22,202 nt of DNA from a virus, in the IMG/VR virus record IMGVR_UViG_3300021605_000014, positions 1 to 22,202 of that record. The stretch is one strand, 5' to 3'. Numbering within the stretch: position 1 is the first letter of the stretch; each line of letters begins with the position of its first letter. Below are positions 1 to 21,464 of this stretch, piece after piece. The translations under genes and the position numbers were made by a program. Below the pieces are notes generated by a model. The model was not told the DNA's origin, did no database searches, and saw only the letters and a list, made by a program, of their open reading frames with translations.

Positions 1-314
1 TTCGTACTGACATCAAAAGCAACGTTTTTACCTATGTGACTTTTCGCAAAAGCAACTACGTCACGGATGAATTGTTTATCCAGCAGTGGTTCACCGCCGA
101 AAAAAGCCACCAGAAAAGGTTTGTCCGCCTTAAATCCGTCACTTTTTTGATAACCTTCATAAGCGGCTTTTATGGCTTTTTTCGCAGTTTCTAACGACAT
201 GTAGTTATATTCAGACTCTTTCTTCACATAACAATAAGAGCAAGCAATATTGCAGTTTGCTGTTGTAATTAACATAACGGTTTCAGCGCGAGAAAAGCTC
301 GGAATTGAAATCAT
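1..314 (-). CDS. Radical SAM enzyme, N-terminal part (runs off left edge)
   Basis: This is a partial minus-strand gene of which the first 104 codons are visible; it is open to the window edge. The ATG at 314 follows a GAGGTG ribosome site by about 6 nt. The radical SAM iron-sulfur triad is clear: CNIACSYC gives C21, C25 and C28 (CX3CX2C). A GGEP motif at residues 73-76 is the usual SAM-contacting second strand. The spacing and the MSLETAKKAI segment look like the SPASM/anSME-type peptide-modifying group, but the C-terminal domain that would decide this lies outside the window. It starts 16 nt after the stop of a small tail-fibre-like gene and seems to belong to the same late operon. By family knowledge it should cleave S-adenosylmethionine to a 5'-deoxyadenosyl radical; the substrate is unknown. 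A protein-modifying role on a phage product is inference from position only. Confidence 0.88.
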   Translation of the reverse strand, partial: MISIPSFSRAETVMLITTANCNIACSYCYVKKESEYNYMSLETAKKAIKAAYEGYQKSDGFKADKPFLVAFFGGEPLLDKQFIRDVVAFAKSHIGKNVAFDVST

Positions 315-330
315 TGTTTTCACCTCGTTA

Positions 331-735
331 TTATTTATAAATAGCGTGTAGTTTAGCATCCATGTCATCCTGTAACTTTTTCAGCAACTGCGCGTATGTC
401 AGGTCGTAAACCCGGTCGCTGTTCACCGCGCGAGTTGCGTTCGGACATACGCAACTCGGATCGAGTTTCTCCGTTGTCACGGCGTGAGAAGCCAGCTTAT
501 CCGTCGTAACTGCAAAGTCGGCGAGATAATCAGTAATCACCCGGTCGGATTTCAGATAAAATTGATTGTAAAAGCTGATCATATTCGCAAGCGCCGCTTT
601 GAACTGTCCCTGTGTAGTCGTGGCATTCGTGAAATTGTCCGCCACCGGCTCAAACGCTGCCGCGTCCGGAGCGGCTATTTCTGCCGCGTTTACCGGTTGT
701 AACATTTGATAATTTTGTGGTTTTCGTTCTTTCAA
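331..735 (-). CDS. Small tail-fibre-like protein
   Basis: This 134-aa protein follows the J-like gene. The TTG start at 735 has a strong AAGGAGG about 5 nt upstream, whereas the next in-frame ATG (705) has no ribosome site, so TTG is preferred. The SD overlaps the TAA of the upstream gene, which suggests coupled translation. Around residues 70-92 there are two tandem copies of a short repeat (AVTTDKLA then AVTTEKLD), a pattern common in the shafts of phage tail fibres. It is followed by CVCPN and a charged, probably helical C-terminus. There is no signal peptide or membrane segment. The likely role is a small tail-tip or fibre accessory protein. Because the next gene is a radical SAM enzyme, it is also a candidate substrate, but nothing in the sequence proves that. 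Confidence 0.72.
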   Translation of the reverse strand: MKERKPQNYQMLQPVNAAEIAAPDAAAFEPVADNFTNATTTQGQFKAALANMISFYNQFYLKSDRVITDYLADFAVTTDKLASHAVTTEKLDPSCVCPNATRAVNSDRVYDLTYAQLLKKLQDDMDAKLHAIYK

Positions 736-10173: not shown

Positions 10174-10518
10174 ATGACTAATTCTGAAAAGATATTGCGT
10201 TTTCTAAACAGCGACCCCGATAAATACTGGTCAAACGACGAACTTAACACAAAATTCCCAAAATTATCTCCGGAAGAAATAGAAGTGTGTGTCAAGCGGC
10301 TCCAGCACAAAGAACTGATAGCCTTTCACGCCTTCTTTGGTGGATTTACTGTAAGAACGAACAATAGCGGGCTGTTCTATTTCGAGGATGATGCCTCTGA
10401 AAAATCCAAAAAGTGGGCGGAACGTCGTTGGGGATTAACACAACTGCTACTTTCAAATTTTGCTTCCGGCTTAATCGGTTTAGGCGCAGGATACTTGTTG
10501 TTTTACCTTACTCATTGA
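10174..10518 (+). CDS. Winged-helix-like protein with C-terminal membrane anchor (moron candidate)
   Basis: This 114-aa protein is on the strand opposite to the late genes. The ATG at 10174 follows AGGTGG. Residues 1-60 (SEKILRFLNSDPDKYWSNDE, then LSPEEIEVCVKRLQHKELI) read as a small winged-helix domain with a recognition-type helix and wing. A charged linker follows, and residues about 90-112 form one transmembrane helix ending at the C-terminus. It has its own extended -10 promoter. Proteins of this architecture occur in prophages, but I do not recognise a named family. It could be a lysogenically expressed moron, for example a membrane-tethered exclusion or regulatory factor; that role is inference. 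It converges with a 34-codon minus-strand gene, overlapping it by 7 nt. Confidence 0.75.
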   Translation: MTNSEKILRFLNSDPDKYWSNDELNTKFPKLSPEEIEVCVKRLQHKELIAFHAFFGGFTVRTNNSGLFYFEDDASEKSKKWAERRWGLTQLLLSNFASGLIGLGAGYLLFYLTH

Positions 10519-16617: not shown

Positions 16618-17733
16618 TTAACGCCCTCCCTTTTGTTCTTGCTTGTACTTCTCGTACAAAGCCGGGTTGTTTTTCCAGACCTCAGTGCGTGCTGTCGCCT
16701 TGGTCAGCTTCGGGTTGGACTTAACAAGCTCCTCAGCTTTAACGTCAGCCTCAGCGAGCGCCGAACCGACCACGCCGGAACGCCCCGAACCGGACTCTTT
16801 GAAGAATTGCGAGTTTGCAGCTACTGCCGCATTTGCCACCATGGTCTTTAACAGATTTTCAAAATCCGTCTCCGGCATTACCGCTTTTGCGCTTTTGAGC
16901 ATCTTCACCATTTCAACAGGATCACCGACAAGTCCCAGCTCGGTTACTTTGTTCAGCAAAACTGCATCGGTTTGGTCGCCAACCATCTTAGCGATGTCTG
17001 CCTGTGCTTTGCTGATGGTCTCGCCTTGCGAGGTAATAGTTGCGCCTTGGGTAGCAATGGTCTCGCCTTGGGTCTTGATGATTGCGTCTTTGACCTCAAT
17101 AGCTTTAGCTACTTCAACCATCACTTCATCTTGGATTGATTTTTTCAGGGCTTGTTTTTCAATGTCAGTCATGTCTTCCTCCTTGTTAATTATGTTTTTT
17201 GATGGGTCAGTATCTTTTTCAGGTTCCGGGTCAGTGTCGGCTATTCCCAACACTTTTTTGAGTTGCTCGAACGCTGTCCTTAGTAATGACTCAGTGTCAG
17301 CGCTCAATTTCTTACCTGCCTTTTCAACAAGCACGTCCGCGCTCAGAATAGATTGCTGCAAATCGTTTATTTCATGCGCCATTTGCTGTTGCTTGAAAGG
17401 TCTGTCCGATAATGCCAGTTCAATTAAAGAATTCTTGAAAGCTGTGACAAGCTCGTTTACTTTGTCATCAACAACCTTACGCCGCTCGGGCGTAATTACC
17501 GGCGGCGCATTGCTTTCCATAGCCGCGTTTTCATTGATGGCGTTGTCCGTAGCGTTTCGCCCCATCAACCAGTCAATAAAGGAACTACGCAAGGGATTTT
17601 CATCCGGGGTTTCTCCTTTTTTCACTTTTTCACCTCCTTTCTTTGCAGATTTCATAACAATAAAGTTCCGTTTGTTTGCCGGATCGTTAACTAATGACAC
17701 CTCGTTGATTTGAACATCGTACAGTTCAGCCAT
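16618..17733 (-). CDS. Scaffold-like protein with XkdF-type N-terminus but no protease domain
   Basis: This 371-aa protein lies where XkdF and scaffold genes normally lie. Its ATG shares an A with the portal stop (TAATG). Residues 1-34 (DVQINEVSLVNDPANKRNF) are the short leader that precedes the protease domain in many XkdF/scaffold proteins, yet the catalytic VVYEPxxxDAHxD region is absent. The rest is highly charged and helical. A block near residues 218-248 has a repeated TQGETI/TQGATI/SQGETI pattern with a 42-bp near-repeat, typical of coiled coil. The C-terminus ends NNPALYEKYKQEQKGG, common in phage capsid scaffolds. The missing protease domain seems to be the separate gene at 9563-10066. 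Confidence 0.75.
   Translation of the reverse strand: MAELYDVQINEVSLVNDPANKRNFIVMKSAKKGGEKVKKGETPDENPLRSSFIDWLMGRNATDNAINENAAMESNAPPVITPERRKVVDDKVNELVTAFKNSLIELALSDRPFKQQQMAHEINDLQQSILSADVLVEKAGKKLSADTESLLRTAFEQLKKVLGIADTDPEPEKDTDPSKNIINKEEDMTDIEKQALKKSIQDEVMVEVAKAIEVKDAIIKTQGETIATQGATITSQGETISKAQADIAKMVGDQTDAVLLNKVTELGLVGDPVEMVKMLKSAKAVMPETDFENLLKTMVANAAVAANSQFFKESGSGRSGVVGSALAEADVKAEELVKSNPKLTKATARTEVWKNNPALYEKYKQEQKGGR
17012..17082. repeat. Coiled-coil repeat in scaffold gene
   Basis: GGTCTCGCCTTG occurs at 17017-17028 and again at 17059-17070, 42 bp (two heptads) apart, with a diverged copy between them. It encodes the repeated TQGETI-type units of the scaffold-like protein. Confidence 0.75.
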
Positions 17734-19114
17734 TATCCGCTACCTCCTAATCCTTTACCGAGATTGAACATTTTCGCTATCTCCTTGCGCTGTTCACCGT
17801 CAAGGTTCTCGATCGCGCCCTGAATATGCTTTTCCAAATCCGCGTCGTCTTCGGGCTGCTCACTGGCATCTGCTGCTTCTTTGGGTATTGGCGGCAGATT
17901 GCCAACGTCCCGCAAATGCGCCTCAAGCTCTCTGTCCGGTGTCAGCATCCCGGCATCGGTCAGCGTTTTGACGTATGTCGACAAATCTCTCAGGTTCGGA
18001 TTCTCAACATCGCCGTGCTTGATGCATGGGAACGGATAACCAACGCCGTTCAGGCGCATCAAAGTTGGAATCAGCTTTCTGTTCAACTCCGTTTCGATAA
18101 TGTCCAGTATTGCGCCGAGCGCATAGCTAAACATCGTCGTCTTATCGCTGGACAGCGCAAACGAACCAACGTTCGACTGTCCAAGCATTATGAAGTCCGC
18201 CAACACGCTCATGAGAATGCGTTTGTCCCAGCGTTCAATAATCAGCGTGGTATCAAACATTCTCGAACCACCGGTAGACAACAGCGACAGTTTAAACCCG
18301 GTTGGATTACCCTGTTCGTCAAGTTCTGCCGGAATAATACATCCGGCTGTTTCGTCGTTTCGTATTTGCGACAGGTACGCTTCAAGATGCTCGAACAAAG
18401 CTACCTGACCGCTAGTTAAATCGTCTGCTTCCAGCAACTTTGGCGGCACTTGAATTACCGGCAACCCTGCCAAATCGCGCTCACAGCCAATGCCCTCAAT
18501 CTCTTCGATGTTCTTCTTGAAGACGTAACTTCTATACGCGTTTCTCAAAAAACTTCTGCCTTCCGGATTATCGCGGTTTGGCTCGGTTTTGAAATGCAAG
18601 CACTTTTCATAAGGTATTTCCAGCATCTCACCCTGCGGAATTGTTAACTGACATACAGCTAATATCTTGTCGCGCTCTTCTAACTCGTCAAACACCCAGC
18701 GCCAGATTGTGTCCTGTGACCGTATACCAATCTTCCTTATCCCGATTTTGCCGTCGTTAAACTTGCTTCCTTCCGAAAACCGCCGCCGCCTGAACACCAT
18801 CTCCATGATGCTGTAACCGTATTCGATCATCGTGCAAGCCTCGGCTATCACATCGTCGAAACTGTTGACGGCATCCGAAAATAAACATTCCTCGACAAAA
18901 GAGGCATTAGCTACGTCGCCAGCATCTTCACTAGCAGGCTGCACCGACCATTTTGCATTACGGATAAGCATCTTCATGCAAAACAGCAACGCCCCAATCG
19001 TAGCGTCGTTGTCCTTCATTTCGCGATACTTGAGCATCCCCTGCCTGCCGACAAGCTCCTGCTGCCACTCGTCTCGAATAACATGTGTTATCGCCGGGGC
19101 TTTTTTATCCCCGA
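17733..19114 (-). CDS. Portal protein, exon 2 (DUF935-like)
   Basis: This is the main portal coding part. The uninterrupted reading frame with a normal ATG begins at 19037, but clear portal sequence continues upstream in the same frame: GDKKAPAITHVIRDEWQQEL to a point near 19114, beyond which a TAG (19135-19137) blocks the frame. No ribosome site precedes the 19037 ATG. Portal features: KYREMKDNDATIGALLFCMK, then EYGYSIMEMVFRRRR, PEGRSFLRNAYRSYVFKK and AGLPVIQVPP. Joined to exon 1 at 19340-19406 it gives about 482 codons, a normal portal length. The portal dodecamer is the DNA entry and exit vertex. The gene is cut by a short RNA element; precise 3' junction is uncertain (19115/19114 or 19124/19123 both keep frame). 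Confidence 0.88.
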
Positions 19115-19339
19115 CCTCTATAGCTTCTTTTCGCTATAAGTTCAGCATACATCATCAACCGTGTCCGTTACTACGGTTGCCCCACACTCTTGGCACTTCC
19201 TTTCGGTCGTACTATGCGTTACAGGACGTAAAGCCTCTCGCAATCTTTACGCTTCCCTCGGTATTAGCGTCTCAGCCTTCACCGATTTTGCAGGGTTTTC
19301 ACTCAGCGCGTTACCGCGCCTATGGGCTTATTCTACCAA
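19115..19339 (-). ncRNA. Probable group I intron in portal gene
   Basis: About 225 nt separate two portal-coding segments. At the 5' edge exon bases TGGGT pair with GCCCA (19328-19324), giving a P1-like stem with the expected terminal U-G pair and cut after 19340. Next come a GCGCG-gtaa-CGCGC hairpin, P3 candidate CCCTGC (19295-19290) with GTGGGG (19185-19180, two wobbles), J3/4-like AAAA, P4 TCGGT (19285-19281) with ACCGA (19262-19258), a CGTAAAG/CTTTACG stem, P8 candidate CAACCG/CGGTTG (19179-19174, 19161-19156) and a terminal TATAGC/GCTATA hairpin. The order is that of a compact group IA-C core, but I could not assign P7 (the guanosine site) with confidence. It has no endonuclease gene inside. 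Confidence 0.66.
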
Positions 19340-19406
19340 ACCCACCGTATTGCCTGAAACCGCCTCTGCCGGTCTGACTTAAAAACGTTTTTTTGTCACT
19401 AATCAT
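19340..19406 (-). CDS. Portal protein, exon 1
   Basis: ATG at 19406 overlaps the stop of the HNH gene and has GGAGGTG about 9 nt upstream, inside the last HNH codons. It encodes 22 codons plus one base: MISDKKTFLSQTGRGGFRQY followed by GG. Unspliced, it would end shortly after at a TAG within the intron, giving a useless peptide of about 29 aa. The phase (one base of the next codon) fits exon 2 entry at codon position two, restoring an open frame of 1449 nt. The motif GRGGFRQYG is repeated with synonymous differences at the N-terminus of the upstream HNH gene. Confidence 0.72.
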
Positions 19407-20029
19407 GCACTCGCCCACCTCCAGACGTAACCTTTGTAACTTTTTATTTTTCCGTTGCAACACTTCCTGATGGTTTTCACATTTATGCCGTTTTCTTGTG
19501 CTGCCCGTTTTGAATAATCGTAATGTTTAACGACTTCTCCAGACAAATCAAGCTGGGTTATAGGTCTTGCCCTTGAATTTCCAGCGCCTGCCATTCTTTT
19601 GGAATGTCTTTTCCTAAGCTCGAAAGTGTTGGCTGAAGCATTCATTTTTAGCATGTGTTCAATAGTTGGATTGTGACCTAGAACACGATTTCTATGTATT
19701 GCTTGTTCTTTTGAAGTAGCCCATTCTAGGTTGCTAACATCATTGTTCGCTCTGTCCCCGTCTTTGTGGTTCACTGTCGGCTTGTTCTCAGGATTAGGCA
19801 CAAAAGCGAAAGCTACAAGACGCGCAACACTCCTGTATAATTTTATCCCTTTGTTGCTTAAACCAACCACTTTATACCCATACTTACATTGGGGAATTAA
19901 TAATTTATTGCGTTTCTCGCTCCAAACTTCCCCGACACTATTGACCGAGTACCCTTCTACGCCGAATTGCCGGAAGCCCCCGCGGCCAATAGCGGTAGTC
20001 ATCAACTTACGTCTGTCTGTTTCTGCCAC
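19403..20029 (-). CDS. NUMOD4-HNH-NUMOD1 homing endonuclease with portal-like N-terminus
   Basis: This 208-aa protein starts with GTG at 20029, with GGAGG 7 nt upstream inside the end of the terminase gene. Residues about 22-70 are a NUMOD4 domain (VEGYSVNSVGEVWS). The HNH site follows with NHKDGDRANNDVSNLEWAT: H88, N95/N96 and N100. Residues about 147-206 are a NUMOD1 DNA-binding domain (TQLDLSGEVVKHYDYSKRAA ... GYVWRW). The first 23 residues are not part of the endonuclease: they include GRGGFRQFG, which recurs at the start of portal exon 1. The gene has thus captured a portal 5' end, or was inserted into one. It probably cuts intronless/insertless portal alleles to spread. Confidence 0.9.
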   Translation of the reverse strand: MAETDRRKLMTTAIGRGGFRQFGVEGYSVNSVGEVWSEKRNKLLIPQCKYGYKVVGLSNKGIKLYRSVARLVAFAFVPNPENKPTVNHKDGDRANNDVSNLEWATSKEQAIHRNRVLGHNPTIEHMLKMNASANTFELRKRHSKRMAGAGNSRARPITQLDLSGEVVKHYDYSKRAAQENGINVKTIRKCCNGKIKSYKGYVWRWASA

Positions 20030-20033
20030 TTGT

Positions 20034-21464
20034 TTACCTCCATTTGCTGTTGGAAATCGAACTTCGCAACCTAATCAATTCCGGCTTAATCTCGTTTTCT
20101 TTCCCAATCCAGTAATTAAGTACTTGAGTAGCGGCATCAATCTGATCATCGTTTTTGCCGTTTGGGAATACTGCCGCTTCTTCAATAAAATCATCAATCC
20201 ACGGCGCTAACTCTTTGTTAGGCAAATATACGTTGCCAGATTCAATGTCGGGGGTCACTGCCTGCGCTCGAACAATCTTGCCGCCTTCCGGCTCAATCGC
20301 TACTAGTCCGGGTATTTTTTTCGTGAGCAACTCAATGACCGCTGTGCCGTTAGCCTTATCCTCGACAAGCTTGCGCCGTGCCTTTGGCCATTTGGCTGTC
20401 ATGTTGACTATAGCTTGCATCGTTGCTGTTATACCCAACTTTCCGCGCGTTTGGTCAAGCAGGTATTTATCCGCGCCAATCCGCCCCCAAACCTGACCGA
20501 CTACGTAATCACTAGTTGTTAAATCCTTAAACGCACAATCCCACGACTGTATAATCTCATCAAACCGCGTCGGCATAACGCTGTAGTATTTCCACCAGTG
20601 CCGCTGAAATACCTGACCGCTGGTTGGAGATGGACGCTGTTGATATAACGCCGCCCAGAGCATACTGCCTAACGCTTTTTTAGCATCCTCGTAGAATTGT
20701 TTACTGAAACGGTTTAGCCAGAGGTATTCGCCAACCGGTCTGCCTAAAATATCGCCAGCCTCAGCGCAAGCCGGAAGCGATATAACTTCCCATTCTTCGC
20801 CGCCTTCTTTTTGTGCCTGTAACAGCCGCCCGGCGAGGTCATCCTCGTGCCAGCGCGTCATAACCAAAATAATAGCCCCGGTCGGCGACAGCCGCGTCCG
20901 GAGCGTTGATTTGTACCATTCCCATACATTGTTTCGAGTGGTTATACTGGCTGCCTCTTGCCAGTTTTTAAACGGATCGTCGATTATTGCGATGTCAGAA
21001 CCCTTTCCGGTGATTCCTCCCCCGACACCAGCCGCCACCAACCCGCCGCGCTTACCTTCAATTCCCCACTGCTCAACGCCCGAATTGTCGCGGGCTACTT
21101 GCTCACCAAACAGTTCGTTATGCTTTTTCAGGGTGTCTCTGGCAATACGGCTGAAATCCCGCGCTAAATCAACGCTGTAAGAAGATAAAATAATCTCTTT
21201 GTCAGGGTTGTTGCCCAAATACCACGCCGGAAACTTCTTTGAAACAATCTCACTCTTGCCGTTCCGGGGCGGCATGAACACCATCAGCCGTTTACATTTA
21301 CCGGCTACGACTTCATGCAGCTTATTACAGACTAATTCGAGATGCGGAGCGGTTTGCCACGCTTCCTCGCCGTCGTAGAGTAGGAATTTCAGTAACCTTC
21401 GTTTAGCTAGTACCCTCGTCGCCTCGCTCCGGTAATATCCGTTCAAGCAGCTCAAGTTCTTCAT
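20034..21464 (-). CDS. terL: Terminase large subunit
   Basis: This 476-aa protein is the DNA packaging motor. Walker A is MPPRNGKSE (64-72), Walker B DIAIIDDP (157-164), and the coupling region is VMTRWHEDD (201-209). The nuclease domain has D309 in SWDCAFKD, ED at 368-369 and the DDQIDA cluster (439-444), all present. This is the family of large terminases in PBSX-type and related Firmicute phages. The ATG at 21464 lies 62 nt inside the small subunit gene without a strong ribosome site, so translation is probably coupled. The gene ends at the GGAGGTAA that also serves as the ribosome site for the HNH gene. Confidence 0.95.
   Translation of the reverse strand: MKNLSCLNGYYRSEATRVLAKRRLLKFLLYDGEEAWQTAPHLELVCNKLHEVVAGKCKRLMVFMPPRNGKSEIVSKKFPAWYLGNNPDKEIILSSYSVDLARDFSRIARDTLKKHNELFGEQVARDNSGVEQWGIEGKRGGLVAAGVGGGITGKGSDIAIIDDPFKNWQEAASITTRNNVWEWYKSTLRTRLSPTGAIILVMTRWHEDDLAGRLLQAQKEGGEEWEVISLPACAEAGDILGRPVGEYLWLNRFSKQFYEDAKKALGSMLWAALYQQRPSPTSGQVFQRHWWKYYSVMPTRFDEIIQSWDCAFKDLTTSDYVVGQVWGRIGADKYLLDQTRGKLGITATMQAIVNMTAKWPKARRKLVEDKANGTAVIELLTKKIPGLVAIEPEGGKIVRAQAVTPDIESGNVYLPNKELAPWIDDFIEEAAVFPNGKNDDQIDAATQVLNYWIGKENEIKPELIRLRSSISNSKWR

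Follow-up and report, generated by a model that had tools for sequence, protein, structure and literature searches.

Two features of this viral locus call for an explanation: a short N-terminal piece of a Mu-like portal gene is separated from the rest of the gene by an insert, and a similar piece forms the beginning of the homing endonuclease gene that lies upstream. The portal protein is the gateway for DNA in the phage head. The window, which is the whole stretch of DNA analyzed, comprises the 22,202 nucleotides of IMG/VR record IMGVR_UViG_3300021605_000014. Read along the minus strand, the terminase gene is followed by the HNH ORF, portal exon 1, an insert of 258 nt, and the remainder of the portal gene. 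The insert lies 22 codons into the portal product, and the portal ATG (19406) shares the sequence ATGA with the endonuclease stop codon. The features considered here, with the evidence for each, are as follows.

20034..21464, minus strand: terminase large subunit, the upstream neighbor (Pfam Terminase_6N/6C; phrog_38, 1.1e-120).
19403..20029, minus strand: HNH homing-endonuclease ORF, 208 aa, GTG start (HNH_3, phrog_59, and I-HmuI matches).
19961..20029, minus strand: second portal N-terminus, VAETDRRKLMTTAIGRGGFRQFG, in frame with the endonuclease and read as a probable relic of the resident 5' end (PSSM; identity to exon 1).
19340..19406, minus strand: portal exon 1, 67 nt, encoding MISDKKTFLSQTGRGGFRQYGG plus the first base of the junction codon (top PSSM score; direct reading).
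19082..19339, minus strand: predicted group I intron (IA type), 258 nt, ORF-less, with the omega G at 19082 (covariance model, RF00028, covariation).
19322..19331, minus strand: internal guide sequence, 5'-AATAAGCCCA (direct reading).
19213..19295, minus strand: P3 5' strand (CCCUGC, 19295-19290), P4, P5, P6/P6a, and P7 5' strand (GCAUA, 19217-19213) (pair counts).
19145..19185, minus strand: P3 3' strand (GUGGGG, 19185-19180), P8, and P7 3' strand (UAUGC, 19149-19145) (pair counts, fold).
17733..19081, minus strand: portal exon 2, Mu-like, starting TT ATT CGA GAC GAG TGG (Pfam Portal_Mu, 2.8e-30; phrog_113, 1.2e-76).

Elsewhere in the window, a radical SAM protein gene (3-368, minus strand; Pfam Radical_SAM, 5e-8) runs off the window end. 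It directly follows the tail-fibre genes, and such cargo is unusual beside a phage tail module. A lone opposite-strand ORF (10174-10518, plus strand) is found within the structural module; its 114-aa product has a hydrophobic C-terminus and gave no match in a Pfam search.

The initial annotation had proposed that a compact group I intron interrupts the portal gene. Sequence, structure, covariation, and homologous introns all agree with this proposal, and both the intron and its ends are well supported at the sequence level. The Rfam group I model RF00028 does match the locus (21.8 bits, E 0.0059), but the score is under the gathering score of 50, which is a database threshold and not a biological definition. 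At six loci with related introns, RF00028 gave no match even at E 0.1, which suggests that the weak score reflects a limit of the model for this lineage. Rfam's group I model is known to under-represent some intron groups (PMC11878797). Matches to SAM_alpha and GlsR5 (E 8 to 10) were rejected as chance.

Related phage introns were gathered by blastn and pattern scans, and ten were aligned with the window. A covariance model built from these ten only, with the window left out, matches positions 19300-19139 with 105.1 bits (E 1e-18) and found nothing comparable in ten other loci. All helices of the conserved P3-P8 core, including the pseudoknotted P3/P7, are present. Over the P3-P8 pairs, 85.9% of the cells are paired and 21/35 pairs have changed on both sides; the cells with two-sided changes number 50 versus 17.8 in shuffles, none of which (0/500) was as high, and the signal becomes weaker or disappears when the partner columns are slid. 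Compensatory changes occur in P3 (5/6 pairs altered on both sides, 100% paired), P5 (2/3 pairs), P6 (2/3 basal pairs), P7 (1/5 pairs, 100% paired), and P8. For example, P3 is CCCUGC/GUGGGG in the window and UCGGGC/GCCCGA or similar in most relatives, and P7 is GCAUA/UAUGC in the window and GCGUA/UACGC in most relatives.

Folding of the single strand gave a stable structure (z -3.9, with 0/200 shuffles equally good) that contains P2, P3-P6, P7.1/P7.2, P8, P9, and P9.1. In this predicted fold, P7.1/P7.2 (GUAC..GUGC with CC-GAAA-GG) lies between the 5' strand of P7 and the 3' strand of P3, which places the intron in group IA, without subdivision into IA1 or IA2. The 3' end GATAACA..TG, with the splice site directly after the G, is common to the window and to those relatives with a clear end. 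A lineage of IA-type phage introns, seen at 11 loci, has a near-invariant P4-P6 core (ATCGGTGAAGGCT..GCTAATACCGAG), scores below the RF00028 gathering score, and varies among its members in ORF position.

The exact ends of the intron were set by comparison with approximately 100 uninterrupted portal relatives (from IMG/VR, one phage record, and one genome). Their commonest form is G..GL.R(F/W/Y)GG-(Y/F/W)-(I/V)-x-EEW, and the spacing from GG to EE is exactly three residues in all of the 84 relatives with a recognizable motif. Joining 19340 to 19081 yields GGT GGG T|TT ATT and a single 471-aa frame, with the protein GGFIRDEW across the junction, in which an aromatic residue comes first and three residues precede DEW. 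The predicted ligated exon sequence is GGTGGGT|TTATTCGA. Among the ten candidate 3' sites that preserve the frame and end in G (19140 to 19046), only 19082 gives three residues between GG and E/D-E-W, and only there does the sequence continue with TTATT, to which the guide segment AATAA is exactly complementary. This pentamer is found at a single place in 300 nt, where exon 2 is predicted to start. Within the guide AATAAGCCCA, GCCCA pairs with TGGGT of exon 1 (P1) and AATAA pairs with TTATT of exon 2 (P10), so that the pairing with the ligated exons (TGGGT|TTATT) contains one U.G, located at the splice site. The last base of the intron is G (19082), and the introns of relatives end alike.

These results bear on most of what had been read from the sequence initially. 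The proposed continuation of the portal frame upstream of the ATG at 19037 agrees with the relatives, which carry the upstream EEW block and the GG motif; a portal start at 19037 was accordingly rejected. The short piece with its own ATG ahead of a structured insert is exon 1, with the ATG at 19406, and the P1 of TGGGT/GCCCA with a terminal U.G and a cut after 19340 matches the guide pairing. As to the suggested check for GG-(F/S) at the junction, GG followed by an aromatic residue (Y/F/W) is the commonest form in relatives, and the junction here reads GGF. However, the insert measures 258 nt (19339-19082) and not 225, and the suggested junctions at 19114 and 19123 were rejected, as they would insert 11 and 14 residues, respectively, that are absent from all relatives and would leave no P10. 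The initial annotation also overlooked that the upstream endonuclease is fused to a second copy of exon 1, as described below.

The endonuclease ORF encodes a protein that matches Pfam HNH_3 (8.9e-8), phrog_59 (5.4e-39, from residue 25), and I-HmuI (1u3e; 1.7e-11, from residue 23), and by sequence it has an I-HmuI-like NUMOD/HNH domain. The best HNH matches begin only at residue 22-25. Relatives of the endonuclease either start right at the HNH domain or begin with unrelated residues, and none has a portal-like extension. The motifs NHKDG and NLEW are retained in the window's protein. However, the His of VHRLVA is replaced by Ala and the Asn of EN by Gln, and both H and N are kept in 20/20 relatives. 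The Asn of EN may correspond to a metal ligand of I-HmuI. Because these residues are invariant in the relatives, the activity of the protein is in doubt, and this I-HmuI-like relative may be weak or dead.

The first 23 residues of the HNH ORF, ending in TTAIGRGGFRQFG, constitute a second portal N-terminus in an in-frame fusion. A PSSM derived from 72 portal N-termini was scored on the ~26,000 14-mers of the window, and the top two were exon 1 (12.8 bits) and the endonuclease N-terminus (8.2 bits); only 1/352,383 background 14-mers scored as high as the latter. At the nucleotide level, the portal-like start of the endonuclease is identical to exon 1 at 20/26 bases, and five of the six differences in these aligned bases are synonymous. 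The homology extends over only a short stretch (26 bases, about 17 residues), and the two copies are ~600 nt apart. The upstream copy sits right behind the terminase gene, where a portal can begin, and stops ~4 nt short of the point that corresponds to the intron insertion site. A search of 2.9 million IMG/VR viral contigs with the pattern GRGGFRQ[FY]G(G) returned a single match in another contig, which is antisense to a long ORF and was rejected as chance. The two exon 1 copies therefore very probably share ancestry.

The endonuclease lies outside the ORF-less intron and adjoins it, which is the layout of collaborative homing. We consider it likely that the HNH gene, a donor exon 1, and the intron entered the portal gene together, that the spliced portal has 471 aa, and that the resident exon 1 is a relic. 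A donor locus made up of the HNH gene, an exon 1 of the portal, and the intron would have invaded an uninterrupted portal gene at, or close to, the point of intron insertion. Downstream, recombination would have been resolved within the homologous exon 2; upstream, the joint would have formed inside the resident exon 1, ~4 nt short of the insertion site. As a recombination scar, the resident exon 1 would have been left fused to the endonuclease, which would now take the old portal start signal, and the donor exon 1 and intron would keep the portal functional. In the transcript, the guide would hold UGGGU of exon 1 in P1 and UUAUU of exon 2 in P10; cleavage after 19340 and ligation at 19081 would release the 258-nt intron and restore the frame of the 471-aa portal. 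To judge from its sequence, the portal intron should self-splice after transcription. Splicing in vivo, the target of the endonuclease, the invasion route, and the order of events are all matters that we infer. Whether the locus is the frozen product of one collaborative-homing event, in which the unit repaired an essential gene with its own exon 1, is in our estimate an even call.

The search for relatives did not recover a close relative of the phage, the best portal having about 50% identity, and thus neither an empty site nor a donor was seen. GTDB genomes contained as near relative only Tumebacillus (47%), and the terminase as the query retrieved three distant contigs only. A degenerate pattern covering the intron end and exon 2, used to find portal introns at the same site, matched 51 contigs, none of which had a portal.

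Under a different order of events, which we think rather unlikely, a free-standing HNH gene carrying a replacement exon 1 would have been the first invader, and the intron, though real, would have come alone later. This order would draw on processes described elsewhere: PMC10448857 proposes endonuclease turnover around intact introns, and there are known cases, such as fungal mitochondrial atp6 (PMC3630166), in which an inserted HEG supplies a substitute for the end of a gene. However, the end of the resident copy only ~4 nt from the intron insertion site links the endonuclease to the intron, and the intermediate was not found in our searches. The repeat of exon 1 might also have originated by tandem duplication in place (replication slippage), with the endonuclease then inserted between the copies, and the fact that both copies share a peptide absent from every other portal found speaks for this origin. 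We regard it as improbable, since nearly every difference within the shared block is synonymous (5/6), whereas a free relic would vary at all codon positions, and the first 12 residues differ between the copies. The synonymous bias suggests that the copies diverged while each served as a functional portal start in a different phage, and not through the decay of a tandem duplicate. Finally, translation of the portal from the in-frame ATG at 19037, with the insert persisting as a dead remnant or acting as a regulatory RNA, is very improbable: a splicing-dead state is conceivable, but the core is intact, as are the guide and the two splice sites, the portals of relatives include the GG motif and EEW block upstream of this ATG, and the conserved exon 1 peptide would serve no purpose.

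The locus can be compared with several known systems. Phage group IA introns such as those of Bacillus phage PJN02 (in a RecD-like helicase gene), crAss-like cr6_1, and Clostridioides phage LIBA6276 have the same P3-P8 core sequence, a like position of P7.1/P7.2, and, where visible, the same GATAACA..TG end. However, several of them contain an ORF, whereas the window's intron is ORF-less and the endonuclease is encoded upstream of exon 1. In ICP1 terL, likewise, the N-terminal exon is short, an intron is present, and an endonuclease gene adjoins that exon outside the intron (PMC10448857), but the gene and the nuclease family (T5orf172) are different, and the available text of that paper mentions no copy of an exon joined to the endonuclease. 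In cyanophage S-PM2, a case of collaborative homing, a free-standing endonuclease, F-CphI, is similarly encoded beside the intron-bearing psbA gene (PMC6083498). Target cleavage is shown there, whereas for the window's endonuclease it is a prediction, and the available text mentions no duplicated exon. In the mitochondrial atp6 hybrids of Allomyces and Glomus (PMC3630166), an endonuclease likewise brings a replacement gene end and the native end persists as a diverged copy. There the end is C-terminal and mostly without splicing, whereas here it is N-terminal and accompanied by an intron. In layout the locus matches ICP1 terL and S-PM2 psbA, and in the replaced gene end it recalls atp6.

Pseudomonas phage vB_PsyM_KIL1 carries group I introns in its terminase gene (476-698 of the locus compared, RF00028 68.9 bits) and in its Portal_Mu-type portal gene (2157-2472 of that locus, 59.9 bits). 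Existing annotation of the KIL1 portal already joins two pieces. The initial claim of rarity therefore holds only in part; the KIL1 site is a different one. That intron is in the middle of the gene, is longer, and is not matched by the covariance model of the window's lineage. Group I introns in phage structural genes, including the KIL1 portal, are already known. Among the papers searched, none was found that describes a portal intron. This analysis found no other case of an insertion site near the portal N-terminus, or of an endonuclease joined to a second exon 1.

Portal genes are common phage markers, and the portal in the window would be annotated 37 residues short. For the wider family, the results indicate that IA-type introns of one phage lineage are reported too rarely by Rfam's group I model. 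How an endonuclease comes to adjoin an intron whose site it cuts is described as not clear in PMC10448857. If the proposed origin is correct, this locus would represent one such route and would parallel, in a phage, the mitochondrial atp6 elements, with the double exon 1 as a sequence trace of a free-standing endonuclease and an ORF-less intron entering an essential gene together.
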